Assembly (NCBI RefSeq): GCF_024713945.1
Contig: NC_134680.1
Coordinates: forward strand, 3,434,001 to 3,498,000
Direction of reading: 5' to 3'
DNA from: Dermatophagoides farinae
Lineage: Eukaryota; Arthropoda; Arachnida; Sarcoptiformes; Pyroglyphidae
Length of the DNA: 64,000 nt
Positions 5,103-61,340 of this stretch are shown here, in pieces. The translations under genes and the position numbers were made by a program. Each line of letters opens with the position of its first letter. Position 1 is the stretch's first letter. The notes beneath the pieces are model-generated. The model had not been told where the DNA came from. It did no database searches and worked only from the letters and a program-made list of their open reading frames with translations.

Positions 5103-5127
5103 GTTAGTTAGTTAGTTAGTTAGTTAG
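5103..5127. repeat. (TTAG)n microsatellite
   Basis: About six TTAG units in a row. The unit is four bases, so it is not the five-base TTAGG telomere repeat of arthropods. Confidence 0.85.
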
Positions 5128-5319
5128 CTGGTTGTTTCTGGTGGCGCTACATCCAGGATGATTATGATGATGATGATGATGGTCATCATCATGTGAACAT
5201 GTAGAGAAAATAGGAGACAAGACAAAAAAAGACAAAATCAACCCTGCTGTGTGTGTTTTTATCACATCATCACCGTATATATAAAGATTGTGCTGTGTTG
5301 TTTAATCGTTTATTATTAT

Positions 5320-5371
5320 TTGTTTGTCTGTTTGTTTGTTTGTTTGTTTGTTCATTCATTCATTCATTCAT
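5320..5371. repeat. (TTTG)n followed by (TTCA)n microsatellites
   Basis: Two adjoining tetranucleotide tracts, a TTTG run with one interruption followed by a TTCA run. They lie about 90 bp upstream of the P450 start codon. Confidence 0.85.
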
Positions 5372-5461
5372 CATAATCATTGATTTGAATTAAAGAATCA
5401 TTTATTTTTATTTTTTTTTTTTTTTTGAGAAATTTTTCGAGCAAAAAGCAAAACAAACAAA

Positions 5462-28102: not shown

Positions 28103-28881
28103 ATGAAATTCTTAATCTATTCATTGGCATTTGCCGCTATGGCCGGTTTGGTTTTCGGTATGAATTTTTTGATTTATTGATTTCCTCACACTAAATTTGT
28201 TTCTTTTTGAAAGGTTCCGAAAACGAAAAAGATCCATATGATGTTGCCGAATCATTGATTAAACATGCTGATGCATTGAAAGAATATGCCGAACAGGAGA
28301 TACAAAAATATCAGAATAATTCACATTATCATTTGGCCATCATACGTTTGGAACATGAAATTCATCGTGTTGAAGCCATTGCCGATCAACTTCGTAATAT
28401 GACTAAAATGGAAAATATGACCGAACATTATATGCATCATTTCCATCAAATTGAAATGGAACTATTAATTTTTGAAAATATTATTGAAGAAGAATTATAT
28501 TATTTAGAACATGGTCACCACCATCATGATCATCATGATCATGATCATCATGATCATGATCATCATCATCATGATCATGATGATTCAGACATTATCGCCG
28601 GTGATGATTATAAAGATGCTTTGTTGAAAAAAGCACAACAACTTATCGATGAAGCTGAAGATGCAATAAAAAAATATGGACAAGGTAAAGATATCGATGT
28701 TCAGGTGATAAAATCCGAAGTTGTTATAATAAAAAACTTGGTAAAACAAATCAATGAAGCTAATAATCCACAAGCATTGGCCGTATTGGAATCAAATCTA
28801 GCTCAACATGAGGAAATTATTCGTAAATGGCTTGATGATATTGAACCACACACTACACATGCCCCAGTTACTATTGCTTGA
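28103..28881 (+). CDS. Secreted two-module allergen-like protein with His/Asp linker
   Basis: Exons 28103-28157 and 28214-28881, joined in phase 1, 240 aa. A clear signal peptide (MKFLIYSLAFAAMAGLVFG) ends at the intron, as in its neighbours. Two helical modules follow, about residues 25-135 (ESLIKHADALKEYAEQEI..., three helices) and about 165-228 (KDALLKKAQQLIDEAEDAI...IRKWLDDIEP). They are separated by a 27-residue linker of only His and Asp plus a few other residues (about 139-166). The module pattern of three amphipathic helices with a short second-helix bend resembles group 5/21 mite allergens (Der p 5, Der p 21), but identity is low and the family name is an inference. AATAAA at 29016-29021. 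Confidence 0.7.
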
Positions 28882-32295: not shown

Positions 32296-33266
32296 ATGAA
32301 ATTGGCCGCATTGTTGGTTATTGCCATGTTTGGCATAACAATTGGTGAGGGATGATTACATTGAAAATATCATCCTGTTTTAAAATAATTTTTTTTTGAA
32401 TTTCAGCATACACCGTTCCAATCGCAAACGATGGTCGTGATGATTTGGCAAAAAAATATGAAGAATTAATTCAACAAGCACAAGATGCATTGAAAAAACA
32501 TCCACAAAACGAGAAAAATCGTCATGATTTCCAAAAGATTGAAGAGGAAATTTTCACCATCAGACAATTGATTGAAATGGTCCATTTCCATAAAGATGAT
32601 AGTAATCTTCAATGGGACAATCTACAATATCAAACACAGAAAAAAAAATTGGAAGAAATGATCAAAAAATTGGAACAAGATGATAATGGCGATGTGACAA
32701 CTTCTGCGCCGGTTATTATCGTTGGTGAATATGATAAAGATAAAATGATTCAAAGATGTGATGTTGTACTTAAACAAGCACAATCTGTTTGGGGTAAACA
32801 AAAGGAAACGCCAGAGAATAAAAAAATCATGGACGAACTATTAAAATGCATCATTGGCTTGACCGAATTGAAAAGTGAAATTCAACTAACACAATCTGAA
32901 TCAAATTTACAGATGGAAGAATTGTATCTGGAAACATATGAAAAAAAAGTACCAGATTTGATTAAAAAATTAGAACATCCAGAATCATTTATGATCACCG
33001 CTGATGACAATGATAATGATGATGATCGTGAAGAAGTAACAAATGAAGCTGTGAAATTAATCAAAGAAGCTAAAAATGTTTTACATCAACATCATAGCCT
33101 TTCACAACAGGATTATGAAAAAATTTTTACGGAAATGTCGATTCTTCGTGATCTGGTACAAAAAGCACAAATTTTCAAAAGTAAAGAACAATTTCATAAA
33201 ATCATGTCCGAAATGCGTGAACATAATAAAGTGATGCGTGAATTGTTGGACAGAATTGAACCATAA
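32296..33266 (+). CDS. Secreted three-module allergen-like protein
   Basis: Exons 32296-32344 and 32407-33266 (phase 1), 302 aa. Signal peptide MKLAALLVIAMFGITIA. Three helical modules of about 80 residues follow: first LAKKYEELIQQAQDALKKHP...MIKKLEQ, second MIQRCDVVLKQAQSVWGKQ...LIKKLEH, third VTNEAVKLIKEAKNVLHQHH...LLDRIEP. They are separated by Asp/Thr-rich linkers (DDNGDVTTSAP and DDNDNDDD). Each module has the same helix spacing as the one-module proteins next door, so this is an internal triplication of that unit. Group 5/21 allergen-like by pattern; function unknown. TATA box at 32207-32214, AATAAA at 33349-33354. Confidence 0.72.
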
Positions 33267-33883
33267 TTTTTTCTTTATTATAATTCATTTATTGTATTCT
33301 TTTTTTTAAATTTTCTTACCAATACTTACATTCCAATTTGATTTAGAAAATAAAATGATTAAAATTTATTGAATATTTCCAATTTCTTTTAATCATATAA
33401 ATAATGAATAGCAGAAATTTAAAACAAAAAAATTTGGGGCCGAATCCACCCCACTCCATCAACGACGTTATAAAACGTCACTCCACCAACGGAGGGTTAA
33501 TTAATTTAATTAATTATTTTTTTTAAAGGTCATGTATATTTTTTAAAAACATCATCATTCTGACTATTTGTTAATTCTTCACAAATAACTACCCTTCATC
33601 ATTATCGATAATTATGGAATGTGTAGAATTCTTGAAAACTTCATATATTTTTTGTACTACAAACACAAACATAAACATAAATTTACCTTTACCTTGATTC
33701 TTTTGGATCATTAAATGTTTTATATATTTTTTTCTATTTTCTATCTTCGATCGATATCGTTTGTCATTTTTTCGAAAAAGAATTTAATGAATGTTTATCA
33801 CTTATACTGAGTATACAACAAACACCATTTTGCTACAATTGTTTCATTCAAAAGAGAGAGAGAGAGATAGATAGATCAAAACA
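33267..33883. other. Intergenic, with a short GC-rich element
   Basis: AT-rich except for about 33436-33500, which is conspicuously GC-rich. That piece contains GACGTT-ATAA-AACGTC, a perfect six-base hairpin, flanked by the near-direct repeats CTCCATCAACG and CTCCACCAACG. A (GA)n run lies just before the next start. No gene. Confidence 0.5.
33349..33354 (+). promoter_or_regulatory. Polyadenylation signal AATAAA
   Basis: AATAAA 83 bp after the stop codon of the three-module gene, the first such signal downstream. Confidence 0.5.
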
Positions 33884-35428
33884 ATGCTCAAATTTTATTT
33901 ACAACGAATATTTGATTCAATAATTTCCATTATCAATGTTGAACAATTTGAAAATTCAAATAATAATGATTTTCCATTGTTTGAGGAATATTTTCATTAT
34001 CTTTATTCAATCATTATTCATAAGAATAAGGATATTATTCGTAAAATTTATTGGAAAATGTTCATCATAGCTATATGGTCATCACGTTTCCTGTATTTAT
34101 ATATTGTTGGCAATGATCGGTCCTATGAATGGCGTCTAATTCACTTTGATATAATTATTATGGCTAAAATTGATAATATATTCAATGTATATTTTGCCGC
34201 TATTGGTTGGATACTAGTATATTTAATTTATGTTTTATATTTTGGTAATCATACAGATGCAACACAATTAATTCATCGTGTATTGATTGATGGTGATCCA
34301 AGATTTTTTATACAAGAAAAATCTTTATCAATTACAATACAAAAACAAATGAAAAATATTAATGATAAAAATGTGGATTATTCTATTGAAAATTATAATA
34401 ATCAAGATCAACGATTAATATATGTACGGCATATACGTTTATGGATACGGATTTATCAACAAATATTTCAAATGATTTATATTATTTCATGTAAGTTGAT
34501 TGGTTTTCATATTGAATTGTAATTAATGAATAATAATTCCACATTCCAAATATACTATTATTTGAAAGATTTTTTGACTATAATTTATGAAGTACAAAAC
34601 ATCATAATTTTTTTTAATCACGGATATTTTTCTTCCATTTCTGGTATCATCAATATTCTGATTGGATTCATTCATCTAATATTTGTCGTTATTGGTAGTC
34701 GAATATTTTTGGATATTACATTTTTTTCAGTGCATTATTCGTCTCGATTACAATGATTTTATCTATAAAATTTAAACAGATTAAAACAAGATGGATGAAA
34801 AAAAATTATGAATCGATAAATTTTGATATAAAAGTTATACCAAAAATACGTAATCGTACTATACAGCTACTAATATTAACGGAAAGTGTTGATCGTACAT
34901 ATGCTGTTTTAATGTTTCTAATAATATTAGTAAATGGTCCAATGAATGCATATGTAACAATGATAATTACAATCAAATCAATACCATTCACTGAACAATT
35001 ATTATTTCTATCAATGTCCATATATCAATGGTCATTCATTTTTCTATTCCATTATACTGCTATACGTTTTGGTCAAAATATACATTATCCATCCAAATAT
35101 TTTATTAATCATTATTATTCATTAACACAACCGAATAATAATAATCATCATCATGGGAGTAATAGTAAAATGGTAAATATTCGTGATCGTTTACAATTAT
35201 CACATTGGTTTGAAAAATTTCATACAAAACGTTGTTATGGTCTTACATATGGTCGGACAAATCTAATTACAATGAATTCATTTGTTCGTGTAAGTATTTA
35301 AAAAAAAAATTTATTTTCAATTTCTTTTTATTTTCACTGTTCCATTCTCAATTAATTTTTTTTCCGTTTAGTTCATCGCATTCTATGCTAAATTCATGAT
35401 GATCGCATATAAATTGATCGATAAGTGA
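33884..35428 (+). CDS. Gustatory-receptor-like membrane protein (copy A), one apparent frameshift
   Basis: Exons 33884-34490, 34569-35289 and 35372-35428 (phases 1 and 0). It shares its whole length, intron positions and phases with the minus-strand gene at 36080-37516. About seven hydrophobic segments; near the C-terminus FHTKRCYGLTYGRTNLIT precedes a last exon, FIAFYAKFMMIAYKLIDK. Small final exons after a phase-0 intron and a conserved motif at the last membrane segment are typical of arthropod gustatory receptors, though the TYhhhhhQF motif itself is absent. Within exon 2 the frame slips at a seven-T run (34721-34727); one more T would align it with copy B and give about 461 aa. Sequencing error or a decaying copy. 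The family assignment is tentative. Confidence 0.6.
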
Positions 35429-36079: not shown

Positions 36080-37516
36080 TCATTGACGTAAAGCAATTAA
36101 TTTGTATGATATCATCATGAATTTCGCATAAAACATGAGAAACTGTTTTTTTTTTTGATTTTAGCAAAAAGACAAAGAAATAAAGCAAAAATAGAAATGA
36201 TTTCATTTAAAATATGATTTTTTTCACATTTCATAAAAAAATACCTTGAAAAATGTTTTCAATGTAATCACTTCGATACCGCCATACGTAATGCCATACA
36301 TTTTTTTTGTATGAAAATTTTCAATCCAAAACGATACTTTCATACGATTATTTAGGCTAATCAATAATAATGATGGATTTAGATAATTTCTAATGACATA
36401 TTTAGCTGGCCGATGAAGTTGATGAACATATTGTGTAGTGATCAAATGAAATATAAATATAAATGATAATTGATATGATATTATTGTTATGAATATAATA
36501 TTATTCAATATTGACATTTGTTTTTTAATCAATATCATAACCAGATAGGCATTTGTTGGATAATTTACCAATAAAAACAGAAACATCATAACACCATAAG
36601 TATGATCAGTACTATTGGTCATCTGTAATATTTCAATATTCATTTGTCTTATTTTGAATAATTTTCGTGATAATAATTTTCTTTTTGATGATAATCGTAT
36701 AATTTGTTTTAATTTCGTGAACAATGCAATTGTGATTACCACTTGAAATGTACCAACCAATAGACAGGTATCAATATTTTTTATTACAACCATTATCATA
36801 TAAATGAATAGAAAACATTGAAATAGTATCGATAAAAAACCATCTATTGAAGTGAAACAATTGAATCGAAATATTAGATAATATAATGATTTTATTTCAT
36901 AAACAAATAGATATACATCTGTAGTTAAGAATCAATAAATAATTAGTTAATATTAGATTCAATCAGATCAAAGAAATTACTTACAAGTAAAAAAATAAAA
37001 GATTATAAATACTTTTCGATAAATAATTGCCCATTTTCGTATACGATATACATAATATTCAGGAATTTTTGATTGATCATCATCATCATCGTCATCATCA
37101 TTCCAATCGATATTATTATTATGAAAAAATTTTGATTTCCCATGCACAAGAATTGATTGTATTAAATTTGTTGCCATCGTATTGTTACGAAAATAAAGTA
37201 TCTTAATGAAATATATGATCATGGCGAAAAATGTTGCCAACCAAATGTTCACTGTTTGATCAACATGTTCAACGATGACAATATTTAAATGGATTAGATG
37301 CCAATCAATATCTTTATTACTATTGGCCATTAGATAGATGAAACGTAAATCTAATATTATCATCAAAATTATCATCATTTGATAACGTCGACGATATCGT
37401 TGATCATGATCATTAGTAATGGCATATAGATGTTTAAAATAGATTCGATAAATATCAAAATTTTTATCATCATTATTAATAATTGTTAACAAACAGGATT
37501 TTATTGTTTCAAACAT
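36080..37516 (-). CDS. Gustatory-receptor-like membrane protein (copy B)
   Basis: Exons 36985-37516, 36245-36918 and 36080-36142 on the minus strand (phases 1 and 0), 422 aa. Hydrophobic segments include MMIILMIILDLRFIYLM, WLATFFAMIIYFIKILYF, KVFIIFYFFTYVYLF, GTFQVVITIALFTKL, YGVMMFLFLLVNYPTNAYLV and IIFITIISYQLSFIFIFHLI. Near the end FHTKKMYGITYGGIEVIT leads into a 21-codon last exon (FLMFYAKFMMISYKLIALRQ). That small exon is recognised because copy A has the same one. The middle exon begins 5' of its first Met (YVYLFVYEIKSLYYL matches copy A). Seven-membrane-segment topology, phase-0 last intron and paired duplication suggest a chemoreceptor of the GR superfamily; a different 7TM family cannot be excluded. 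Confidence 0.62.
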
Positions 37517-41463: not shown

Positions 41464-43664
41464 TCAAAAATGAGGAAGTTTAAATAATTTTTCATAAAGA
41501 ATTTCGGCAGAAAAAACAAGAACAGAGCAAATGATACCAAAGGTCCACAATAAGAATATTGAAAATACATGCATTAGTTGTACACCATCATGAACCACTG
41601 TTGAAGATGATGATGGTGATGATGAGGATGATGGAGATAAAAGTGATTGAAACATGGATTGATATTGACCATGTGATAACTTTCTTGAGATATTAGCAAA
41701 CCAAATATAGGCAAAACCAGATTCATATGTAAGTTGTATACTAAAAAAAAATATCAAATGATCTCGATATATAAAAATGAATGAATATAAAAATTATATT
41801 ACACATACTAAAGATCAATCACATTGCTCAATGGTGAATGTCGAGCAAGCGCTACGGCTAAAAAATCAGCACCAAATGAACCATGACCAACATGTAATGG
41901 TTTTTTGGCCATCAATTTCGATAAAAATATCAAAATTAATTTGGAATTAATATAAATGTAACGACCTTCAGGATCATTCTGAACAATATCGATACCATTC
42001 ACAACATTGTCTACCATTTTTTCATTGCTTCTATAAAAAAGATAATTATAAATTAAATAAAAATTAATCAAATTATAGATGAAACAAACCGATTTAAATG
42101 TTGACCAATAATATGTAAAGTTGTTAGAGCACTTGGTGAATTGACAAATGTATCATAATATGCACCATGTGGTACAGTAATAATTTTGTAAAAGCCCATT
42201 TGAGCTGCTTGTAATAGATCACCGATTGTATCGATTGGTTTTTGATATTTAGGAATTGTCAATAATGAATAGAATGAGGCACAGTAAGCGGGTGATAAAA
42301 CAATCATGGCTAAAATGAAGAGCAAATAAATGATTCTGATTTGATAATGCTCACGAGTATCTGTATCGATACTTTTGCTCAATAATATGGCATAAAGATT
42401 CATTGACATTGATGCAAATGAAGGCACTTTGCCATAATCGTGAGTATAATCCAAAAATTTTGTTGTCAAATAAAGTGTTAGTAAAATGGCAAAAAATGAT
42501 ATCAAGATTATTAACCATAATAACACTGAAAAAGGCTTCATAAAAAGCCATAATTGAGTTTTTTCCGCTGGAGATTGAGATATAAATCCTAATTCATCAG
42601 TTGTTATAATCGATGTAAAATGAATCGCTAGTGCTCTTGGGTAGGAAATCGAAATTCCGCAGATACCAATATCGGCAGTACCATTAAAAATATGACCAAT
42701 AGATCCTTTCCATATATCTGGACCGATAAGTTGACCCCAATTCTGTTCACCATCAATAAGATCATAGGTAAAGTTCATTTTCGTTGATATAAGATCAATA
42801 AAATATCGATCCAATGAATAGGGCATCAATTGAAGATTAGGAAATCTAATTACATAACAAAGTGGATTAAACTATAGAAACAAATAAAGAAAATCATCGA
42901 TAATTATTGTGAATCAATTGATTTTTTTAACTTACATCATTGACAACAACTTTCAATCGTTGTTGTTTAAGATTACATTTCAAATAGGATGTTTTAATTT
43001 TTTCAAAATCTTCGTCAGTTTTTGGTATGTACACAGAATTTGTCATTCGACACCCATCAAAAATTGGTCGTAAATGAATGGTTGTAGTCATGCTTTTCGA
43101 ATCGTTGCCAGCGATAACTATTAGACGAAAATTCCGGTCCAATTTCCAGATTAATTCAGATAATGATTTATACAAACAGTGAGTCAGATTAAAATTGCTA
43201 TTGGCCGTTATAAAAGCGAGCATATATGGTTGACAGCTATAACATTCATTGTATAATATTTGTAAAACTTTTATTAAACTCTGCAGATATGATTGAATTT
43301 CTTTCTTATGAATGGAATAAGATAAATTAAAAATTATCAATAAATTACGATCACGATATTCTGATTTTTGTCCTTGTTGAAAAACATTTGAATCAAGTTT
43401 ATCTGACGATTCATTTACGTACAAATCGAATGGACAATCAAAATCATTCAATCGATTCTTGACACGATTATCGATTGTATGATGAACATTTTTAATTAAA
43501 ATAATTTTCATTTTTTGAAATTTCAATGAATCTTCACTACATATTCGTTGTAGATAATACCATAGACTTTGATCACCTGGAAAGTGTAGAACAGAATTTT
43601 TCACTGTTTCAATAATGATAATTTTTAAAATGAATAATGATAAATGAATTAAAATTTTGATCAT
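41464..43664 (-). CDS. Ionotropic receptor (IR), tandem copy 1
   Basis: Exons 42936-43664, 42090-42871, 41809-42030 and 41464-41740 on the minus strand (phases 0, 2, 2), 669 aa. MIKILIHLSLFILKIIII forms the signal, chosen because copy 2 also begins MIK plus a hydrophobic run. A divergent amino-terminal region (about 220 aa) shares LRPIFDGCR with copy 2. S1 has YDLIDGEQNWGQ and ADIGICGISISYPRALAIHF, with the ligand-binding Arg kept. M1 is VLLWLIILISFFAILLTLYL, the pore region SFASMSMNLYAILLSKS, M3 IRIIYLLFILAMIVLSPAYC, followed by FYSLLTIPKYQKPIDT. S2 has RYIYINSK with Asn where classical receptors carry Glu, and M4 is FSIFLLWTFGIICSVLVFS. Likely a chemosensory cation-channel subunit. Confidence 0.85.
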
Positions 43665-44033
43665 TTCGTTATATGTAAATGTATACAATAATGATGTTCT
43701 TAAAATATATACCGATTTCAGAATAATAATAACTAAAATATTATTACACATGAAGACAGTCACCAAAACAATTATTTTTCCGAATCAATTAAAATTATTA
43801 TTGACATTCAAAGAAAATAAAAAAAAAAATTGGTAGCGAAAAAAAAATCTCAACAGACATATAATTATAATTATAGTAAAGAAATTCAGTACAAAATACA
43901 AAAAATAATAATGATTCATGTGTCAACTTTCTCATGAAAATTCTAATCTGATTGCCAACAGGAAAGATATATGAATACGCTACAATGTACATAAGTAGTT
44001 TCTTTTTTTTCATTAATTTTCTTCATAATGGCA
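43665..44033. other. Spacer between tandem IR genes
   Basis: About 370 bp, AT-rich, no gene; must hold the 3' UTR of IR copy 2 and the promoter of copy 1. Confidence 0.5.
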
Positions 44034-46357
44034 TTACAAATTTCCGATATCGGTCATTGGAAAGATAATATAAATAAACCATTTCCGATATAAGAATTCG
44101 CCAATCATACTCATTGATGAACCAAATAATCCGATCGTCCATAGCGCAAATGTTAATTGTAAATCATTAAATTGTAGTCCATCTGCGATTAATGATAATT
44201 CACGATTCTTACCACTACCATAAGATAGAATAAAATCATCGGCTTGTTGATTTTGAGCTGGAAAATAGCGAAACATTTGCCTGTACCAATGTTCATGTAA
44301 TCCGGCTTCATATGCAATTTTTATGCTATAAATATACACAGAAAATAGAAAAGACAATTTTTAATTTTGTTTCCTATAAATTCATTCCAAATAAACAGAA
44401 ATAATTACTGACTAAAAATCAAATGAACGAAATAATGGTGATTGTTTGGAAAATGCGAATGCAATTAAATTTGATCCAAATGAATCTTCACTAATATATA
44501 ATGGTATTTCAGCAAATAATTTTCTTGAAATTTCCAATGACATTTTTGAATCAATATAAATGAAACGTTTATCATTAGTAGTATTTTGTACAATTTGAAT
44601 TCCTCGTTCAATATTTGTTGCCATTGTTGAATGGCTTCTGTGTATGAGAAGAAAAAAAAAATCATGTCAAAATTCAATTTATTATTAGCATCACCATTAA
44701 TTACCGATTCATATGTTGACCAATTGTGTACGTCGTACCGGAATCAGGATCAGCATCAATAAATAATTCTAGATATGAGCTAAATTGTAATGTTATTATA
44801 TTATGACTATCACTTTGAGCAATTTGAATTAATTGATCGATTGTTTCAATCGGTTTCTGATATTGTACGATGGTTAAAAATGAATAATATGAACCACAAT
44901 ATGTAGGTGTTAGGACAACCATTGCTAACATAAACGATAGATAAAGGATTCGAATCTTGAATAATCGTGGAATCGTGAATGTTGTTATACTTTTACTTAA
45001 AAATATGGCATATAAATTCATTGCAATCATCGACGATGATGATGGTCGTTGATCATTAATCATCAGTGATTTTGAAATAAAATAAAGTGACATCAAAATG
45101 ATCAAGAATGAAACTAAAATTGCAAACCAAACTTTTATTTCGAGTGGTTGAAGAAAAATAAATTCTTGTTGTTCATCCATTGGAAACGGCGTTATGAATG
45201 TCAATTCATCAATTACAGTGAAATGAGTAAAATCAACAACTCTTGATCGATCAATATTCATCGACATACCACACATGGCTAGATCAGCTGAACCATTAAG
45301 TAGATGACCCACCGAACCACTCCATGATCGATTCGGACCAATACGATAGCCCCAATTCTGTTCAGAATCGATGAGTGTATAACGAAAATTTATTTTTTCC
45401 GATAATAATTCCATCATTTTATAATCAATCGAATGTGATTCCAATATGAATGTATCGAAATTACAATGTGGGGTAAACTTTTTTTCAGAATAATAATAAG
45501 AATCATTATTTTATTTATGACAAAATAGATATTAAAATTTAATTACAATTGCTTACATTATTGATGGCAGCAGACAACATTGTTTGATTAAGATCACATT
45601 TCCATGATGATGAGATGTTCATTTTTTCAAAATCAGGCCTGGTTCGTGGCATGAACACACCATTGAATAATCTACAACCATCAAAAATTGGCCTCAAATG
45701 TATTGCAGTGGTGGGGGTGGTGATATCCGTTCCATTCGAATTGGTTACAACAACAGTAGTGATTCGAAATCTTTTATCGGCTGATGGTAGTAATCGGATC
45801 AATAATCGATTCAAAATGTTTGTAAATTTTTCATGATGACCATGTGATTGTGTGAAAATTATGAATAAAAATGGCATACAAGTTAAACATTTTATATAAA
45901 TTATTTGTAATGATTGCATAAGAAAAGTGAATTTTAACCATAATTCATTATTATCCAAATTATCATCTTTGTTGTGAATAAATGATATATCAAATATCAC
46001 CAGAACATTTCGATAACGATTTTCTGGTTTTTTTCGATACGATAAATTTGAACTCAGTTCTTGTATGGTAATATTCGAATAAAGATCAAATGGACAATCC
46101 ATTTCATACAGATGTTTGCGAATAATCAATGTTGAACGTAAGGAATGTAGATTTTCAATCAAAATTATTGTCGTTTTTTGTGATGACGATGAAAAATATT
46201 TAAATTTTTGTAGATAATTCCATAAATTTGATTCCCCCGAAAATGGTTGAACATTGTTTGATGGTAAACAAAAATTTACATTAACATTTATTATCAATAA
46301 GAATAATAATAAGAACGTAATCATTATGAAAATCTTCAATTTCAACCATTTGATCAT
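44034..46357 (-). CDS. Ionotropic receptor (IR), tandem copy 2
   Basis: Exons 45557-46357, 44705-45477, 44413-44637 and 44034-44325 on the minus strand (phases 0, 2, 2, identical to copy 1), 696 aa. The signal is near residues 10-28 (IFIMITFLLLFLLIINVNV). The amino-terminal region has DCPFDLYSN and LRPIFDGCRLFNGVFMPRTR, both shared with copy 1. S1 has FRYTLIDSEQNWGY and ADLAMCGMSMNIDRSRVVDF, with the Arg kept. M1 is VWFAILVSFLIILMSLYFI, then MIAMNLYAIFLSKS in the pore, M3 IRILYLSFMLAMVVLTPTYC, S2 with RFIYIDSK, and M4 LTFALWTIGLFGSSMSMIGE. Same strand, exon plan and spacing as copy 1 show a tandem duplication; divergence is substantial. Confidence 0.85.
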
Positions 46358-46867
46358 GGTTGTTCTTGTTGATTATCAAAACTTGAAGAATTTATTGAAA
46401 ATGATGATAAAAAAAATTAATGAATCGATGAATGAATGAGAAAAAATCTAATCACATGTTCTAAAGCTAATAATTTTACTCACAAACAAAATGTTAATAT
46501 TATTATTATTGATCAAAATGTTTGAATCACAATTATTTTTTTTCTGTCAATAATAACAAAAATATTCAAGGGAGAAAAAATTATTACCTCGTGATAATGT
46601 GTGTGTGTGTGTGTGTATGTACGAGATACATTCTAATTTTGTCCCATTGTCAGACTGTTTGTAATAACCGGAATGAGAAAATTTTCGGAAAATGGGTGCA
46701 ATATTGTTGCAAATTGAAAAAATGTCATGAGAATAAATATTCACGATTTATTATATTATATTAAAAAGAAAAATTATTGTTTTTTTCAATCAAAAAAAAA
46801 AAAAAAAAAAAATTCATAATAAACATTCGATATGTCGTCGTCGATCATACATGATTTTGTTCAAAAT
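46358..46867. other. Spacer between IR copy 2 and the aminopeptidase gene
   Basis: No gene. Contains a (GT)n tract near 46600-46616 and a long poly-A run at about 46793-46812. The IR promoter should lie here. Confidence 0.5.
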
Positions 46868-49800
46868 TTATTGTCGATTTCTCAGCCATTCGAATATTTT
46901 CATACGATAATTTTTAGCCCAAACAATGTTTGTCTGTATTGTTTCCAATGATTTATTTAGATTTACATCGGAAACACCTGTATCACGATGTCTAATGAAA
47001 AATTGTTGAAATTCATTCAATTGTTTTTCCGTATAAATATAACGAGCAAAATATGTTGCTAATCGTCCCATATTTGATGATGATAATCGTTGGGCGAGAA
47101 TTTGGCGATAATTTTGTTGAAAATATTGCCATCCAATTTTAAAACCAACAGGTGTCCGTAATATATACGTGTAAAGACCAAGATAATCTTGACGACGAAT
47201 ATAATTTTGTTCCATACCATAATTCATTAGTCTATGAATCGAAAATATGATTCACAAAAAAAATCAAAATATCCAAACAAGAAATCATAAATTGAAAAAC
47301 ATACCTAGTGAGCAATTGTTTGTTCTGTGTTTGAGCCAATGCCTGTAGATAATTCAATTTCATTACCGTTGATTGTTCTTCATTGTATTTTTTCCATACA
47401 AAATTCCAATCATCAACATCATTTGATTCTTGTAAAGCGTAACGAAGTACGACAGTGATTATGTTTGGCGATATTCTATCGATATAACCTTGACGCCATT
47501 TTTTAAATTCTACTTCTGCTTCGGCTAAACATAAATCGAAACCATATGCACAGGCAAATGATGTGACTGTTGTTTGTAATCGTTGAGAATTCATATCTAT
47601 TTGCATGGATGATGATTCTTGAAGGTTGTAGTTTCGATAAACATCACGAACAAGATCATGTGCATATGAACGATATGCTTGTTGCATCATTTGATTCATA
47701 TTGGATTTGCCATCATCGAAATTAACATTACGAAAATATGGCCATAATTTTCCAAAAATGGTCGAACCGGTTGACCAAATCGAATACCTTTGATTTGTTT
47801 TCAATATTGAAAGTAATTCAAATACTGTTTCGAATGGCAAAAGATTTACGTTAGCTAAACGAAAAGCATCATACATAAGATGTGAATAATCTTGTGATGT
47901 TAAATGTAATTTTGACATTGTCGTTTGATCTTGAAATAATTTTGTCCATTTTTTCCATTCATCCATTGGATAATTAACAATATAGAATCCTTGAGAATCA
48001 CAATTGAATTTCAATGGAAAAGATTCATTATTATTTGATTGATTCAATTCGATTTCCTGTTGGCCATTCGAAATGAATTGGATTTTTGCTTCCGTGGATA
48101 CAGTATAATCGTTATAGTATGAAAGTGGAATAATATAATAATCGCTATGGAAATTATTGTGAAAAAAAAGAAATAATAATTAGTTTTTAATCTTTTAAAT
48201 GAAATCATAATCATTACTTATTGTTAGAGAATTTTCCACTGGATAAAAATCTTTCCTGTGTAATGATATATCGTGTACTGTTATCGATTCGGGTTATGTT
48301 TACATATGGAAATCCTGGTTTTAATGTCCATGATTCCAGGAATTTTCTTGTTTCATTGAATCCATCGATTGTAATTTCCGATATTTCGGTTAAAAACTGA
48401 TCAGCCGTAACAGTTTTATATTGATATTTTTTTAGATATTTTTGTAATTGACCATAAAATGATTCAGTGCCTAAAACATATTCAAACATTCGTAATATGG
48501 ATGAACCCTTTAAAGAGAAAGAGAGAGAGAGAGTGAGAGTGAGAGAAAACAAATTATCATTAAAATCAATGGATTCACATGAAAAAATATTAAATTGAAC
48601 CTTTTGATATGTAATATGTGATATATAGGAAATTTCGGCCGGTTTATCAATCGAAGATCTAGATAATGGATGGGCAGTAATACTTGCATCGGCATCCATA
48701 CCGAGAATATAATCAGTTATATAGAATAATTGTTTATAATTCCAATCTGGTTCAACTTTATCGACGGCAAACCATTCTAGATATGATGCGAATGCTTCGT
48801 TTAGCCATAGATCTGTCCACCAATCACAGGTGACTAGATTTCCAAACCACTAAAGAGAGAAAAAATAATAATCAATCAATGATTTGAATAAATAAAAAAA
48901 ACGAATACGAATACCATATGAGCAATTTCATGTGCAACAACGGAAGCAACCCTCATTTTATCCGAAGCCGATGATATGAGTTCATTCCATAATAATGCCG
49001 TTTCACGGAAAGTTAAAAGGCCCCAATTTTCCATTGCACCAGCACTAAAATCTGGTAAAGCTACAAGATGCATTTTTTCCAATTGATATGAATAATCGAA
49101 TTTTTTCTGAAAATTGCTAATTATATCCGATACTTTTGTCAATGAATAGGCTGTATTATTGATTTCCGGTGGTGATGAACAAATATCTACATTGATTTCG
49201 GTACCATTCAATGATTGTGTTTGATCATGATTACATTCAAAATCACTGATTATAAATGCCAATAAATAGGTGACCATTTTTGGTGTTTCTTCGAATTCTG
49301 TTCGTTTCCACGACGATGTTGTTGTTTCATTGGAAATCGTTTCGATCGATTTTGAATTCGTATTTGATATGGCAGTGAAATTATCATGATGTTCAATAGT
49401 TAGCTGAAATGTTGATTTAAATGATGGTTCATCAAAACATGGAAATGCTTGTCGAGCATGAGTATCCTGGAATTGTGTTGCAGCCAATTTTATTACATTT
49501 CCATTATCATTATATTTGCTTAGATAAAATCCAGTCATATCGGTACCAAGTTTACTATTGAAACTAAAATTCAATTGAATGTTCAATGGTTTTTCATCTT
49601 CAACGTTGATTGATTCTTTCATTTCAATAACCCAAAATTCATATGGTTCATATGCAAATGTCTGTTTAATCGATAATTCCGTATCAGAATTGAATACTTT
49701 TGATTCGGTTATATTCAATGATTTCGCGGCATGTAAAATTACATAACGAATTGTTTCCATTAGTTTAACATTGATTTCTACTGTTCCTTCAAATCGTTCT

Positions 49801-52800
49801 TGATCAATATCAACTTTTATCGATAAACGATAATGTTCGGGAATAACATTTGAATTCAAACGGAATTCGGTGAATGGACAAACATCATTTCCACACTATT
49901 TAAACAAAACAAGGGATAAATCAGATGATATTTGAGAATAAAATAAATTTCACTTACCAATAAAAATCGTTCCACTTCAACCATTCGATTTGCTATCCAA
50001 TTGATATTGCTATCGATTTGATTTAGGATACCATTTCGTTGATTTTGTGTGAGACCAATGTTTGGATATTTAGCGAAAAATTGTTTCATTTCATTTTTTT
50101 GTTCGGTGGTGAAAAAATATCTGGAACTAATACTACTTAATAATGATGACACTTTTGTCAAACGTAATGGTGAACCAGTTCGAATAAATTTTAGATAATT
50201 ATCCTTGAAAAATTTCCATAGTAATGCCAAACTGTTTCGATTATTACAGCCACTAACAGCAATGAATACGGAATATGAATCTTGTGATCGTATTACTTGA
50301 TTTGCTTCCAATGCTTGTGTTAATAACATTTTTAATAATTTTGAATCCTTAGTCTGTGCTAATGCATTCATATAGATTGAACGAAGTGTCGATGATGTTT
50401 CATTGGAATATTGTGACCAAACAAATAGCCATTGATCGGTTGAATTAGAATTTTGTATACCATAATCAAGTACAGTACTCAATAGATTTGGTGATGGAAT
50501 TTTATCCATTTGTTGATTCTGTTTACCAATGATCCATTCCTGAAATAATCGTTCACTTTGTTCAAGACAATCATTAATTCGGTTAAAACATGCCCAATCT
50601 AATATGGATGATCGTAATCTCCGTTTTGTAACCGGTTCATCGATTGTATCATTCCAACCCAATTCATCATAAACAGGTTGTACAAGATTTTGAAGATATT
50701 CACAGAATTTTCCTTCATACAAACTTGCATGTGATATATATCGTCGTATTGAGCTAAATCCACGTATAGCCGTTGTCCATGGCGATAAATGTGTTTCATT
50801 CCTTAGATATTTGGCCAAATTTAATGGAACATTATATGAAAGTAGATTAGCCTGTGCAAGATAGAATGCATCCATCATAAGGCCACTTCGATCAAGCACC
50901 GGTACTTCATTTGATTTATCCATGAATGTATTGATCCATTGTTGCCAAATTTTAGGTGAATAATTCACCAGATAATAACCAGAATGAAGTGCATTTAAAT
51001 TGATAGGAATTGATAGCGAATTATTTGCTGTGATTGTCATCGTTTCATTGATCATAAATTCTGTTTTCATATCTTTCCACGTTGAATCAAGATAATATTT
51101 GATCGGTATTTTCCATTTAGGTATCGTAGTATTTTTAGTTTCTTCCAAAAGAAATCGATCTTGAACTAGATTATATACGGTTTCATCACTAGATTCGGTT
51201 ACATTAATGTATGGAATACCGTTACTGTAGAACCAATCATGAATAAAATCACTCATTTTTATAGTTTGTTCATTAGTATCATTGAATACAAATTGTTCAT
51301 CGAATTCAGCCAATAACATTTCCGGTCTAACGCTTGTATATTTATGTTTGGCTAGATAATTACGAAGTGCTGCATAAAACAGATCACTTCCCATTACTGA
51401 TTCAATCATACGTAGAATTGAAGCACCTTTTGAATAGATTATACTCGAATCGAATTGTTCACTTTGTTCGGTACGTGTAACATTACGTATTAATGGATGA
51501 CTATCTTTAGCATCCGATAATAAACCATATTCAAATTCGGATATCAGAAACAAATCAAAAGTATTCCAATCTGGTTCAACGGCATTGACTGTTGTATATT
51601 GCATATAAGTTGCAAACGCTTCATTCAATGCGATAAAATCCCACCATTCACATGTGACCAGATTTCCAAACCAAAAATGTGCCAATTCATGTGCAATCGT
51701 ATTCATCATTGACATTTTTCGTTTCGAAGTTGTATCCTGTTCATGGAATAATAATGCCGTTTCACGGAATGTAATTAGACCCCAATTTTCCATTGCACCA
51801 TAAGAAAAATCTGGTATAGCAATTAAATCCACTTTCTTCATTGGATATGGATGACCAAGTAATTGTTCAAGATGTTCTAAACATTTCGGTGCCTTTTCCA
51901 ATGCATAATCTAATTTATGTTCTTGAAGATGTGATGCACAAACACCAACTGTAACCTGATTATTTTCAATCAAATAATGTTTGCAAACAAATTTACTGAC
52001 AGCCATTGCAACTAAATATGTAACCATATCTAATGATTCATTGAATCTTGTTTGTATCCATTCGGTATTGGGAATCTGTTTGACATCGATCACTTCCATA
52101 TTAGATAATGTTGTATTCATTTCTTTATCATGAATAATTGTAACGTTGAATTTTGATTTGAATGCTGGTTCATCAAAACACGGGAACACTTTACGTGCAT
52201 CGAAAAATTCAAATTGTGTTGATGCCATTCGGTAATTTTTATTTCCATCCGTATAGTTGGATCTATATAGGCCAGAAATACCAGCATCAAGAAGATTGGC
52301 AGTAAAATTAAATGTTAATTCATACGATCCAATCGATTGTTGTTGATCGAATTCAATTACAACAAATTGTTTTGGATAATATCGAAACATTGTTACATGT
52401 TGAATCGAATCCTTATTAATGGATTTTTTCACTGATATCAATTTTACTTGAAGCATTTGAGCTGCATGCAGAACAATTTGTTCGAATGGTTTTAAAGCTT
52501 CGATTTGAATATTAACACTACCATTGTAGATATTTGTGGTTAAATTAACTTGTATGGTTAGATCATAATGTCTTGGTTGAATAATGGTTTTATCAATACG
52601 TGTTTTTGCCCACGGACATGGTTTAGGTGTTCGATCTCCACAAGCATTCTGGCCAAACCATTCACCAACTTTTTCCTTATTATTCGACATCCAAGCTAAA
52701 TTGTATTCAATTCGAGCAAATGTCGATTCTTGTCCACTCATCGAAACTCCTGTTCGTTTATCTTTTAGAAAATTCCAGATATCTAATCGTCGTTTTTCAG

Positions 52801-55800
52801 TAACAGTATGATCGGCAAATCTTGTCATGATCATATCCATCTGATCGGTGGATAATTTTCTAGATAACATTGAATAATTGTTGGTAAAATATTGCCAAAT
52901 CATTTGTTCATGTTCATAACGTTGAATAATGTAGAGGAAAAATTGTACAAAATGATTATTCGAAACGATTGATTCATTCAATGCTAGATCTAAATATTTT
53001 TGAACAATTTTACTGTCGGATATATGACTTAATGCTTCAAGATAACCGGTCTTGTTGGTGTGTGAATCTTTTTCTATTGAAAATCTTTGCCAAACAAATT
53101 CATAATCTAGCGGATTTTTACTATATTTCATACCATACGATAATGTGGATGCAAATAGATCAGGTTTAATTGTGCTATTCTCAACTTTCCATTTGTCAAA
53201 CATTACGTGTGCATCTTTTAAACATTGATGATTACCACTACCACATGCAATTTGAATGATTATTTTTCGAAACATTCGTTCTATTATTGTTGAATTTTCA
53301 ATGTTCCAAAAATCGATACCACTATAATGTGATTGAGTTAAACGTCGTTCAAAATGGAGATATGATTCACGATATTCAGTACGTTCCATTTCCCAGGCAA
53401 GATTAGCAATCAATCTATAGATGAAACAAAAAAAAAAGTTTTTAAATTCCATTCTTACAAATCCAAAAAAAACTTACTTTGAATGAAATGTCCAAGGAAC
53501 ATAATGTGTTTCATGTACAAGATAATTATGCATATCCAATGCAATAAAATATGGTGCAAGTTTAGCACGTGATAAAAAATATGATGATGTTATTAATTCA
53601 CTACGATCATTCACCGTTAACAATGAAACAACGTTATCTTTATTGGCGATTAAATCATTGATCAATTTTGACCATTTTTCCGATGGATAATTAACAAAAT
53701 AGAATCCATTAAAATTTGGGTTGATTTTGATGATGCTATCAAAATAGTTTAATTTGCCAGTTTTTTCGGTTAAAAATTGAATCGTTGATTCTTTTACTTG
53801 TTGTTTTTCATCATATGTATAATATTGGAATGGAATGACATAAGTTAGATCATTCGGTGGACGATCACCATTTCGTATGAATCTTTCTTGTACATATTGA
53901 CAGGATTTGTTCACTTCATTATCATCGACGTCACAAGTGATATTAAGATATGGAAAACCAATTTGTTCAGTCCAAGAAATGATAAAATCTCTGGCATTCT
54001 GGGTATCATTATATGGCCAATTTTGTTCGAATGCTGCGTAAAGATTTTCACTTGTTGCTGTTTGATATTGCAGTGATTCAAGATATGATTGAATTGATTG
54101 TTGAAATGCATTCAAACCCATTGTCTTTTCAAACATATTCAATATTGTTGATCCTTTATTATAAACGATTCTTGTCACATATTTCATATCTTTTGGTTGA
54201 TTCACTTTACGTATTATTGGTTGAGATATTGGATCATAATCACCAACAATTGCCTGATATGTATAACTTTTGACGAACGTGTCCCAAATTTTCCATTCTG
54301 GATGAACAGAATCCATTCCTTTACATTCCATGAATGATGCAAAACCTTCATTTAACCATAGATCACCCCAAAAATTCATCGTAACGAGATCACCGAACCA
54401 CATATGTGCCAATTCATGTGCAATAACATTGCATGTATCTTTTTTCTCTTCAGAAAGATTATCCATTTCGGACCATAATAATTTTTTCTGACGATATTTC
54501 ACGAGACCCCAATTTTCCATTGCACCGGATGAAAATTGTGGTAATGCTATTTGATCCAATTTTGGTAGACTATATTCAATTCCTGTATAATTTTCATAAA
54601 ATTTTAGAATTTTCGGTGTTACACTTAAAGAATATTCACGATGATGTTGATCGTATAATGGCGATGAACATACACTAATCGATAGGTTGCGAAGTTCCAC
54701 ACTATTAATTCGTGAACATTCGAAATCTGATACAAGAATTGCAATCAAATATGTAACCATAGGTGGTGTCGTTGCAAATTTTGTTTCCATCCATTTATCA
54801 TTAATATCGTTGAATGATAAAGCATTCATATTTGATAATGTTTGTGCCATTGTTTTTGGATGTATCACTGTGATCGATATATTCGATTTGAATGATGGTT
54901 CATCAAAACACGGAAACATTTTTCTTGCATGTGTTGATTCGAATTGTGTTGCAGCTAGATTGATACGTGTACCATTATTTTTATCATCATACCAGCCATG
55001 ATAAAGGCCAACTAGACCACCTTTTGATAGATTACCATCGAAATTTAATTCCACCATATAATTATCACCTTTAGTTGTATTCATTTTCAATGGAATAACA
55101 TAGAATTCTAATGGTGAATATGTAAATCCACGTCCAGTGGATAACAATAAATCAGATTTGATTTCAGTTTCTCGTTTTTGTGTTGTTTGTTTTTGTGTAA
55201 TTTTCGGTGATGAAACGTCCAAAATATCAGCAGCATGAACAATGATATGATCGATTTCATCATCAATATTCACCTCTATCTTAACGGTACCATTATATCT
55301 TAATGTATCTGTATCAATTTGAATATTCAAATCATAATTCAAAGGTTTGACCAAACGATTCAATCGATATTGATTCCATGGACAATGTTTTGTATCGCAA
55401 ATATCGGTAACATATTCAATTACATTTTTATAGAATGATCGTGACCAACGAATATTAGCATCAATTAGATCCATTGTTTGTTGACGATAAAGTGCACTGG
55501 CACCGGCTTCAGGATATTTTTCAAATAATTCCATTACTTCTTGACGACGTTTATCTGTTGTAAAATGAAACGCAAAACGATATACAGCACGACCAACATC
55601 CGAATCATCCATTCCATATCGTTGTTGAATTTCTGGATAATGTTCACGATAAAAATTCCATGCTAAATCTAATCCAATTGAATTATCAGCCATATAGGCA
55701 AGAAATGTGAAAAAATCTTGTGTACGAAGATAATTTGTATCCAATGAATTATTGAGCAATCTTTGTAACATATCCACATTGGTTGTAGCTGTCATTGCTT

Positions 55801-58800
55801 TAAGATAGGTCATTTTTTCATTAGTTGTATTGGCCGAATCATAACGTTGTTGAAGAAAAGTGAATCTTTTATCTGTTGCTTCGAAATTTAGTGCATAATA
55901 TAAAAATACAGGTAATATATCCGGATCATAATTAGCGGTTGGATTTTTACTGTATTCATCGAACAATTGTGATGCTTTCTGTAGACAATCTTGATTGCCA
56001 TAATCACAAGCTAATGTCAATATTAATGAACGGAAAAGACGTTGATTCATATTATCATCTGATTTGGCCGTCCATCCAACATCATCATAATGATTGGCAA
56101 TCAATTTTGTTCGTACCCATTGATCGTAGGCAATACTCTGATCTTGTACAGCCATAAAAACTCGTATAAATTTTAACATATCGGCTGCATTTTTCCAAAC
56201 CATATAGGATTTTTCCAATCGAAGAAATTCGGTTAAACTTAAACATTGTTTATAAGGTAATCGACCAGCACGAGCGAGATAGAATGCATCCAATAATAGA
56301 TTGTTTCTATCTAAAGCACTTGTCTGATTCCAAACCTCCGATTCACTATTGTTCAATGTCTCAATCCATCGTTTCCATTGTTCCGTTGGATAGTTAACAA
56401 TAAAAACACCTTTTTGATCGACATTAAATTTTATCAAATCATCTACGCCAATTTCGATATCATCTTTGTACATTTCTTTTGTATACATTATGAATTTTTC
56501 AATATTTCCACTGATATCGGGAATTTTTTGATTAATCAAACGATATGTAATCGGAACAGACCATAAATATGTTGTCGTTGAATAGGGAGAATCTTTTAAA
56601 AATCTTTCCTGTACAAATTTCATCGTATTATTCTTATTATTCGTTGTGATTGTGATTACGGGGAAACCATCTTTTCGTAACCATGTTTGCATAATTTTTT
56701 CTATATCTAAATTTCTATCAGCAACACTGGACAATTCGTTCCAAAGATCACCGGTTAACGTATTTGAGTAGCTAAATTTTTTAATATAATTCTTAATGCC
56801 GATACGAAACGTTTCATCACCAACCATTGATTCCAACATTCGAATGATACATGATCCCTATTAGAGAAAGAGAGAGATAAAGTTCAAAAAAATAAAATCC
56901 TGAAAAATCTCAATCAATTTCAATCAACAAACTTTTGAATAAGTGATGGAATCAAAAACTGCTTGTATCGAATTATCATCAGTTACTTTTGTCTGTAATG
57001 GATGAGTACTAGTCATTGAATCCGACTCATATACACGAGCATATTCATTTATGGCATAAAAATCATGATAATTCCAATCCTTTTCCACATAATCTACGGC
57101 TTTATATTCCATAAATGTTGCGAATCCTTCGTTTAGCCAAAGATCATCCCACCATTTCATTGTGACCAAATTTCCAAACCACTAACAGGAATTAAATTGA
57201 ATTTTAAATATATTCAATGATTTTAAAAAAACACTTACCATATGTGCTAATTCATGACATATTATCTGGCAAATTTTAGTCTTCGACAATGTACTCGTTT
57301 CTTTTGAATCATAAAGAACATAGATATCACGATACGTGACTAGACCCCAATTTTCCATTGCTCCCATTTGAAAATCCGGAACGGAAATCATATCCATTTT
57401 AGGTAATGGAAAATCAATTTCAAAATATTTTTCCGAATAAAATTCCAATGCTTGAGGACCAACTCGTAATGCATAATCGGTTTTATCCAGATTTATCGCA
57501 CGATCATATGTATAGACACTGAAATTTGACAATAATGGACTAGATTTTGATACAAAATCACTGACAACAATTGCCACTAGATAGGTGGACATTTTTACAG
57601 AACGTTCGAACGTTGTCATTTTCATATTTTTATCATTCAATGATCGTTGAACAAATGATATGGGCATATTTGAAATGGCTGAATAATTGGCACCATGTTC
57701 AATTTGTAATGCAAATGTTGCCTTAAATTGTGGTTCATCAAAACATGGAAACACTTTACGTGCATATCCAGCTTGAAATTGTGTCGTGGCTAATTTGACG
57801 GTTTCACCGGTTTCAGAACGTTGATATTGTGAAAGATAAAGACCACTTAATTCTTTACTTAGTTTGCCATAGAATCGTAGTTCAACAACATATGTTTCAG
57901 GTAGAATTATTTTCTGTAATGGAATAATCCAATATTGATTTGGTCGAAACAAGAAATGTGTCATTTTCGTATCGAATAATGAAAGATTATCGTCATGTCC
58001 AGTAACATTAGCGATGAAAGGAATTGAAACTTCTACACGTGGTTGTTGTTTCGTATATACAGCCGATGATGTAATGTTCAAATCTTTTGAATGTAAAATT
58101 AGATAACGAATCGGACGATGAATTTCGATTTCAATTCGAACAGAACCGGAAAATTTTTCCTCATCCACCAAAACGGTAAGATTTACATCATAATGTTGTG
58201 GCCGTACAGATTCATCAAGTCGCCAACGTAACCAAGGATTTTCATTCGGATTACGATTATTTAATATTTTCGAAACATTTTGTTCATTATCCTCAATCCA
58301 TTGAATATTTTCACGTATTGTTTCGATAGCTTCGATACGAGCTCCTTGACCAGCACCAGCATCAGGATATTGGTGGAAAAAATCCATAACTTCTTGTAAG
58401 CGAGATTCGGAACGGAAACCACTAATAACTGAACGAACATACGTTCCTAATCGGCGATCATTCAAACCAAAACGTTTGATCAATTGAGGCCAATGATTTC
58501 GAATATATTCCCAAATCATTGATCTTCCAATGTCACTATTCGAAGCGATTGATTGTTGTACAGCGAAAAAATTTTCATTATTAATTTTATTCAAATCTTC
58601 AGAATATGATATCAATACGGATATAAGATTTGGATTAGTAGTCGATGTCAGTGAGGAAATTATTTTCGATTTTTCAATTGCATCTTTTTCAGATTCATAT
58701 AGATCCCACATACGTTGCCAATCCGATTCATTCGTACTGGCCTGTAAACCATATTTATAAACATATGATTTTGTATTCGAATCTAATCGCTTTCCACGAT

Positions 58801-61340
58801 CCATCCAATCACGAAATTGTTGATAACATTGTTTCGTGCATTTTTCATAGCCAACTTTACATGCTATCGTAATTAATACATTACGTAAGGCTATTTCATC
58901 CAGTTTTTGTGCAGAGTTGTCGGTTGTCGATAAATCAACATTTGAATCGAATGAATTGGCAACGATCGATTTGATAAAATCACGAAATTGTATCAATGCC
59001 AAACCACTTTCACCAAGTTTATTGATCAATGATGTGATTACATTATTAGCCACTGACCATGGAATATAATTTGTTTCCATTTCAAGATACGTGAATAGAT
59101 TGAGTAAACGATCATAGGATAGTGCCGATATCTCGGATAAACGATATGCATCATGTAATAGGTTTGCACGATCACCAACACTGAATGATTTGGAATTTCT
59201 TTTCAATTCACTAATCAATAGATCCCAATCTTCGGGTTGATAATTTACAACATAATAATCATGGCCATCAGGATTTAATTTGATCCAATCATTCGATTCA
59301 AGTTCATATCCAAGATCAACAATCATTTCTGATTGGTTGAATAAATGCGCAGATTGTTCTTGTTTTGGATGTCGATATTTGATATAAATATTCCATGGAT
59401 CTTCCAGTGGAATGGATGTTGAATTTGATCGATAAATTGTTTGTTTTAATCGTAGTTTCATTGTACTTCGCTGAGATTTGGATGGTGATTCACGAATCGA
59501 ACGTTTAAATGTTTGTTGTTCACGTTCAACAGTAATGATAGGATAACCATTGTGATAAAGCCATTTATTTAGAAAATTTTTTCCATCAATTTTAGTCGTT
59601 GTTTCAATATCCTTATAAAAATAACTCATCATTTTTTCTGTATCAACATTTGAATATTGATTTTCTCTAAGTAAATAGCTAAAATTTTCCATAAATTTCT
59701 TCCGCCCAATTATACTTTCAATCATATAAGCAATCGATGCACCTTTTGAATAGGAAATTGTATCGAATAGAGCCGTAATCTGATTCGGTGTAAGAATATC
59801 ATCCCTTTTCGGTACCAATGGATGTGTTTTAGATAAAGAATCGGTAGTGAATGCACGATGTAGATCATCGATTAAAAATCGATTCCATATATTGAATGAT
59901 GCGTCCAGGTGATCTTGACCATAATATTCGATAAATGATGCAAAACCTTCCTGAAGCCAGAGATCATTCCACCAAGTGGCTGTGACTAGATTACCTATCC
60001 ACTTTTTTTGAAATTTCATTTTAAAAAAATGGTCAGAATTTTGAGAAAAAATAATTCGAAACAATTACACTTACCATATGGGCTAATTCATGTGCAATAA
60101 CACTGGCTATTTTTCGCCTATCATTAACACAAGATTCATCGGCATCAAATAGGATATATGTTTCCTTGTAGGTGACTAGACCCCAATTTTCCATTGCACC
60201 GGATACGAATTCGGGTAAACCGATCAGATCTAATTTTTCCAATGATTGTGAATATGGAATGGCCGTTAGATTTTCATAATATGATAGAATAGTTGCCGCT
60301 GATTCACAGGCATACATGGTTTTTTCCACCTGATCTGGTCGTGAATAAACACGAACACGTGTACCGGTTGTTGTCTTTGTTTCTTTATATTCAAAATCAT
60401 TCACCGAAAATGCCACTAAATATGTGGACATTTTTGGCGTCTGTTTAAATGTTGTCCGGCTGAATCCGGTTTCAATACTCGGTACGGTTTCTTTTTCCAT
60501 TTGATTGGATATGGCTCTTAATCCGGTTGGATGGATTAACGTTATATCAAATGTAGCTTTAAATGATGGTTCATCAAAACAAGGAAATGCCATACGTGCA
60601 TATGTTGGTTCAAATTTTGTTGCCGTCATATAACGAATTTCATTTTTGATCGTTGTATATGGACTACGATAAAATCCGATAATCTGTCCATTTCGAAACG
60701 TACTGGAAAACGTAATCTGTAATGCATATTCCTCACCTTTAACCAATGATCCATCTAATTCAAATATACATCGTTCAAACTCCGTATTGCTAGAAAAATT
60801 TTCAATCGCAACCGATGGTTTCGATAATGAATATGATGATATGTTAAGATTTTTACAATTAAGTACAATTTGATCGATTGAATCGTTGAGAACTTGTAAC
60901 GTAATACGTACTGATCCATTGAAAAAATTTTCATTAGGATCGCTACGTATTTGTAGACGATAATTTATAGGTATGACATCATGATTAAGTAATAGATTAT
61001 CAGATATTGGTGGCGGCTTAGTCGATGTAATCGTTGTTTGTGATGTAGTCAATGTCGATGTGTAAGTTGTTTCAAAAGTTGTCGAGGTTGTTGTAGTCGA
61101 TTGATCTTTGGATAAATCATTATTCTCTATATAAATTTTGAATTATAATGGGTTGGTGTCTGTTTTTTTTTCACAATTTTCAACAAAAACAAAAAACTTA
61201 CTATTACGTTCAACAATGTATGCGGCTAAAAAACCGATAAACAAACAGGCCAATATGAATATGGCGAAACCTAATAATAAGGTTTTCGTACGGCCAGCTT
61301 TTGATGATGATGGTGATGTTGTCATCGATGCGCTTGCCAT
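46868..61340 (-). CDS. Giant membrane aminopeptidase with five tandem M1 units
   Basis: Eleven exons on the minus strand: 61202-61340, 60075-61126, 57239-60001, 56933-57181, 53478-56857, 49958-53414, 48915-49895, 48601-48849, 48218-48507, 47305-48144 and 46868-47231. All phases agree; 4,587 aa. Residues 21-43 form a type II membrane anchor and about 58-87 a Thr-rich stalk. Five gluzincin (M1, aminopeptidase N-like) units follow with HExxH at residues 392, 1313, 2215, 3103 and 4002. Each unit also has GAMENWG, a downstream (Q/N)E(G/A)FA zinc ligand and the catalytic Tyr (SYSKG, TYSKG, VYNKG, IYSKG, TYQKG), so all five look active. Units 1-2, 2-3, 3-4 and 4-5 are joined by open frame inside exons 3, 5 and 6 or by a phase-0 splice. 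Expected to trim N-terminal residues from peptides outside the cell, perhaps in the gut. Ordinary APNs have one unit of about 900 aa. Confidence 0.9.

Follow-up and report, generated by a model that had tools for sequence, protein, structure and literature searches.

Related M1 aminopeptidases usually comprise one enzyme per chain. In the window, a stretch of 64,000 nucleotides of the mite Dermatophagoides farinae, five M1 units lie one behind the other on the minus strand. We favor, with a probability of about 0.7, the reading that the locus is one gene for one uncut type II "beads-on-a-string" ectopeptidase with five M1 units in series, which would have arisen by stepwise in-frame duplication and whose units would differ in preference and serve a digestive role. 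The DNA itself shows the frame, the domains with their catalytic residues, the one anchor and the short linkers.

A continuous reading frame across the unit borders

A minus-strand gene model rebuilt independently from the sequence spans positions 61340-46868 and comprises 11 exons, with 4,587 codons and a single stop at the end. Each of the ten introns has GT-AG ends, with lengths of 57-93 bp calculated from the exon coordinates, and in-frame stops are present upstream of the exon 1 ATG. The features of the model, with their basis in parentheses, are as follows.

61202..61340, minus strand: exon 1, short and basic N-terminus with the start codon, then the single transmembrane segment at aa ~21-43 (model, hydropathy)
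60075..61126, minus strand: exon 2, Ser/Thr-rich stalk followed by the M1_N domain of unit 1 and the beginning of its M1 domain with GAMEN and HELAHM (model, Pfam)
57239..60001, minus strand: exon 3, remainder of unit 1, 1/2 border in open frame and start of unit 2 (model, Pfam)
56933..57181, minus strand: exon 4, part of the unit 2 M1 domain with the second zinc-binding Glu (model, M1 match in the genome scan)
53478..56857, minus strand: exon 5, remainder of unit 2, 2/3 border and most of unit 3 (model, Pfam)
49958..53414, minus strand: exon 6, end of unit 3, 3/4 border and the whole of unit 4 (model, Pfam)
49895-48915, 48849-48601, 48507-48218, 48144-47305 and 47231-46868, minus strand: exons 7-11, unit 5 (model)
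46867..46872, minus strand: AATAAA word that overlaps the TAA stop (46870-46868); a second AATAAA starts at 46752

Borders 1/2, 2/3 and 3/4 each fall within a single exon, and at border 4/5 the units are joined by a phase-0 splice. The border-spanning exons 3, 5 and 6 contain no stop in the coding frame, compared to 50-127 in each of the five other frames, an openness far exceeding chance. Three donors look weak (GTTCAA, GTATTC and GTTTGT), all of them at intron positions common to other units, namely between HELAHM and W or between Y-x-K and G. An earlier sequence-only reading had proposed an 11-exon minus-strand model of 4,587 codons with closing introns, no stop across the first three borders and a phase-0 join at the fourth; the rebuilt model reproduced it exactly.

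Neighboring open reading frames

Immediately downstream, the peptidase gene is followed by two tandem ionotropic-receptor-like ORF pairs (42068-43784 and 44701-46372, minus strand), and the ORFs at 42068-42871 and 44701-45510 matched Lig_chan and Lig_chan-Glu_bd above cut-off. For an ORF at 18723-19565 (plus strand), the Lig_chan match was only below cut-off. Repeated helical-looking segments, perhaps two or three copies sharing a frame, were seen in the ORFs at 28195-28881 and 32400-33266 (plus strand), which we took to resemble group 5/21 mite allergens; this identity was not supported, as no Pfam family scored over cut-off and no allergen was found among the PDB matches. The ORFs at 33875-35301 (plus strand) and 36224-36931 (minus strand) are multi-pass and gustatory-receptor-like by eye, and the scanned part of these ORFs, 34699-35298, had no Pfam match.

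Five M1 units behind one anchor

The limits of the five units were placed by eye.

58241..61028, minus strand: unit 1, aa 80-984, M1_N, M1 and ERAP1_C, exons 2-3
55400..58240, minus strand: unit 2, aa 985-1887, exons 3-5
52643..55399, minus strand: unit 3, aa 1888-2785, exons 5-6
49958..52642, minus strand: unit 4, aa 2786-3680, wholly within exon 6
46871..49895, minus strand: unit 5, aa 3681-4587, exons 7-11

M1_N, M1 and ERAP1_C are present in that order in all five units, with intron-split domains matched piecewise by exon. These Pfam matches, those listed all being above the curated cut-off, come from a scan of 9 of the 11 exons (exons 2, 3 and 5-11); the M1 piece on exon 4 was matched in the whole-genome M1 scan. 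GAMEN occurs at aa 356, 1277, 2179, 3067 and 3966, a spacing of 888-921 residues, and HExxH (as HE.AH) at aa 392, 1313, 2215, 3103 and 4002. The HExxH-x18-E zinc site, the GAMEN exopeptidase motif and the catalytic Tyr are kept in 5/5 units. Among these residues, unit 1 has QE as opposed to NE in units 2-5, and the zinc motif is typically spelled HELAHM, with HELAHF in unit 4 and HEIAHM in unit 5.

The hydropathy profile contains one strong hydrophobic segment, with a value of 2.87 at aa 21, the next highest in the whole protein being 1.37. The segment stands behind basic residues and is followed by a Ser/Thr-rich stretch, an N-terminus that, by hydropathy only, fits a type II anchor and stalk. 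The sequence-only reading had described five full M1 units with a period of about 890-920 residues and a single N-terminal membrane anchor; both descriptions agree with the domain content and motif spacing found here and with the profile, in which no internal segment comes near the first. Its view of the units as apparently active also holds at the level of sequence, because the catalytic residues are conserved in all five.

Two further features bear on surface exposure. A C-x6-C pair in ERAP1_C is common to the five units and ERAP1 and is missing from human APA, the mite paralogue C5 and the PSA-like row; because human APA and C5 are without it, the pair is no sure mark of export. Compared with 1000 shuffles, sequons were clearly enriched only in units 3 and 4, with borderline enrichment in unit 2 and none in units 1 and 5, and since the excess is clear in just those two units the glycosylation pattern lends weak support to exposure at the surface.

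One uncut chain or several products

The four linkers, counted by hand from the terminal N-[IL]-x-W helix of one unit to the PW/PF of the next, are 20, 21, 25 and 19 residues long, and a C...C-P-(W/F) loop recurs in the linkers that precede units 3, 4 and 5. An alternative to the uncut chain is a five-unit precursor that secretory or gut proteases cut after synthesis, so that the enzymes become separate or are in part released. An analogy is offered by lactase-phlorizin hydrolase, which acts at the gut surface, has several units and is processed, and the mite protein has RxxR words at aa 564, 1871 and 1899 and many dibasic pairs within the units. However, none of the four linkers contains a dibasic pair, three of the four lack RxxR, and no RxxR or dibasic motif is common to them. 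RxxR words near a border are confined to 2/3, where RWSR (aa 1871, end of unit 2) overlaps the terminal NIRW helix of that unit and RLNR (aa 1899) lies just inside unit 3; the word at aa 564 and the sole R-x-[KR]-R of the protein (aa 799) are both inside unit 1. Furin-type processing at the linkers was rejected for lack of a shared motif. As the linkers are short and without a shared basic cleavage motif, the earlier suggestion of cleavage into separate enzymes was not supported, and we consider such a precursor improbable, although gut proteases may trim the chain.

Alternatively, internal promoters or alternative splicing could yield several transcripts or genes for separate one- or few-unit enzymes. 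There is an intron at the 4/5 border which, if retained, would let the frame continue for 33 codons to a stop, and seven AATAAA words, as a raw count, lie inside the gene upstream of 49000. Such products are nonetheless hard to reconcile with the other three borders, which sit in continuous exons, and those from inside the gene would have neither anchor nor signal segment, the only strong hydrophobic segment being the N-terminal one; introns of 57-93 bp leave no space for alternative anchor exons within the gene. We therefore regard separate transcripts as very unlikely. An assembly artefact joining separate gene copies can be practically dismissed, as 65-72% of aligned residues are not the same between units, the borders lie inside uninterrupted exons with an open frame and the gene lies in the interior of a 7.1 Mb contig.

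Other M1 genes in the genome

The assembly contains a Der f 2 gene that departs from PDB 1ahk (Der f 2) at a single residue of the aligned stretch beyond the splice boundary and has a lower score against Der p 2, which identifies the host as D. farinae or a very near relative. A whole-genome scan for M1 gave 20 matches, distributed over the five-unit locus and six others. M1_N was matched at these seven loci as well, and ERAP1_C at four of the seven (C4, C5, C2 and C7). Family scans score the best candidates only, so there are at least this many M1 loci. Each of the six other loci has one unit, as judged by tblastn with the five units against 8-9.5 kb around each.

C1: TAF2, single unit
C2: PSA-like gene, single unit (label from motifs and tree)
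C3: LTA4H-like gene, single unit (410 bits on a fragment, below the model's full-length cut-off)
C5: APN-type gene with intact motifs, single unit (label from motifs, tree and PDB hits of the C-terminal piece)
C7, L012 (G000 C7) 3269-5497: diverged, degenerate M1 paralogue with HSISH for HExxH and no GAMEN, single unit
C12, L013 (G000 C12) 2651-5446: intronless proteobacterial-type PepN (TIGR02414, 841.8 bits; cut-off 718.2)

The C7 paralogue is probably a non-catalytic M1 protein. C12, a contig of 157 kb, probably represents bacterial DNA included in the assembly of the mite; no bacterial SSU rRNA was found on it among the five matches listed (5 of 155 candidates scored). C5 aside, the APN-type capacity found in the genome, itself a lower bound, thus lies in the five-unit gene, and if the protein is made as predicted, 5/6 of the intact APN-type units found would be on one molecule.

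Relationships among the units and their origin

Pairwise identity is 28-35% among the units and 29-34% between the units and human APA, so that the units are about as distant from one another as from the human enzyme. At such values a recent repeat or duplication, an assembly echo and assembly collapse were all rejected.

The larger tree included two human references (APA and ERAP1) and three paralogues from the mite's own genome, with no LTA4H. Its order, U1,(U2,(U3,(U4,U5))), is the order along the chain. Support in the ten-row tree was 100/98 for units 2-5, 100/98 for units 3-5 and 90/90 for units 4-5, and became 100/99, 100/98 and 92/92, respectively, without C7. A single clade for all five units received 89/89 with the long C7 branch and 61/83 without it, so that a common origin of all five appears weakly supported, with strong support for the groupings of units 2-5 and 3-5. 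In the ten-row tree, a branch with support of 100/99 separated C7 and the PSA-like row from the units, C5, APA and ERAP1. A further mark common to the units is HELAHM (HELAHF in unit 4, HEIAHM in unit 5) as opposed to the HE[L/I]xHQ of C5, APA and ERAP1.

Because the tree nests in chain order, it suggests stepwise growth: an ancestral single-unit gene would have been extended by in-frame duplications within one transcription unit. The intron between HELAHM and W occupies the same alignment column in units 1, 2 and 5, and that between Y-x-K and G the same column in units 2 and 5 and also, as read from its sequence, in C5. These matching positions are as expected if genomic DNA was duplicated and some units lost introns afterwards, and do not fit retrocopying. 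The nested tree may be a record of a tandem family turning into one multi-enzyme gene.

Proposed function of the five-unit protein

As an uncut ectopeptidase, the protein would be a single type II membrane chain displaying five M1 (aminopeptidase N/A-type) zinc exopeptidases outside the cell. Each unit would cleave residues off the N-terminus of peptides, with a residue preference of its own, and one uncut surface molecule could in this manner trim peptides of mixed composition, presumably in a digestive role at the gut surface. We infer that the five-unit protein is expressed, matures uncut, is active, differs in specificity between its units and is located in the gut.

Differing preferences were assessed at the residues aligned to ERAP1 181/183/316/433, which, following work on ERAP1 and APA, we take to be pocket-lining positions. 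These are K/E/S/F in unit 1, Q/Q/M/F in unit 2, Q/E/S/gap in unit 3, Q/E/Y/D in unit 4 and Q/Q/A/gap in unit 5, a combination distinct in every unit, with the 433 column poorly aligned in units 3-5 (gapped in units 3 and 5, doubtful in unit 4). Unit 1, for example, has Lys at position 181, and units 2 and 5 have Gln at position 183. Since all five combinations differ, complementary substrate preferences are suggested. It is a tentative and rather doubtful extension that the uncut chain, each of its five aminopeptidases tuned to a different N-terminal residue, would form a covalent exopeptidase assembly line, achieving with one molecule what takes many in an insect-type APN cluster. If made as predicted, the protein would offer a natural test of whether tethered exopeptidases of different preference speed peptide breakdown. 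As the mite is a major source of allergens, the protein would also be a candidate surface or faecal protein of very large size from such a source.

Comparison with known enzymes

In a PDB sequence search with exon 6 and exon 3 as queries, APA (ENPEP; 4kx7) ranked top, followed by ERAP1 and APN, with PSA lower, placing the units nearer to APA, APN and ERAP than to PSA by sequence. Predicted two-unit M1 proteins may exist in arthropods. In the portions of the open-licence literature covered by searches on tandem M1 enzymes, mite aminopeptidases and tandem-domain analogues, no multi-unit or five-unit M1 enzyme was described, and the text on "aminopeptidase" in PMC10434197, PMC7591027 and PMC9725168 contains no such protein. 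A pattern scan of viral contigs gave no match; among prokaryote contigs three stretches matched, none of them a relative, neither collection being informative on mite orthologues.

Glutamyl aminopeptidase (APA) and aminopeptidase N (ANPEP) share with the mite units the three-domain architecture and the motifs, and their type II anchor plus stalk resembles the N-terminus of the mite protein. They carry one unit per chain, however, compared to five in the mite gene, and the zinc motif is HELxHQ in APA and ERAP1 as opposed to HE[L/I]AH[M/F] in the mite. Because one reading frame holds five catalytic units and not the single one of APN/APA-type enzymes, the predicted protein is classified as a variant of the APN/APA-type M1 ectopeptidases and not as an ordinary member. 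Insect APN gene clusters likewise gather several diverged APN-type units at one place, but there as separate genes, whereas in the mite they share one reading frame. In carboxypeptidase D, somatic ACE, polyserases and lactase-phlorizin hydrolase, a single chain, membrane-bound or secreted, likewise contains several catalytic-type domains that are homologous to each other; the mite protein would work in like manner, although these belong to other enzyme families and have two to four units.
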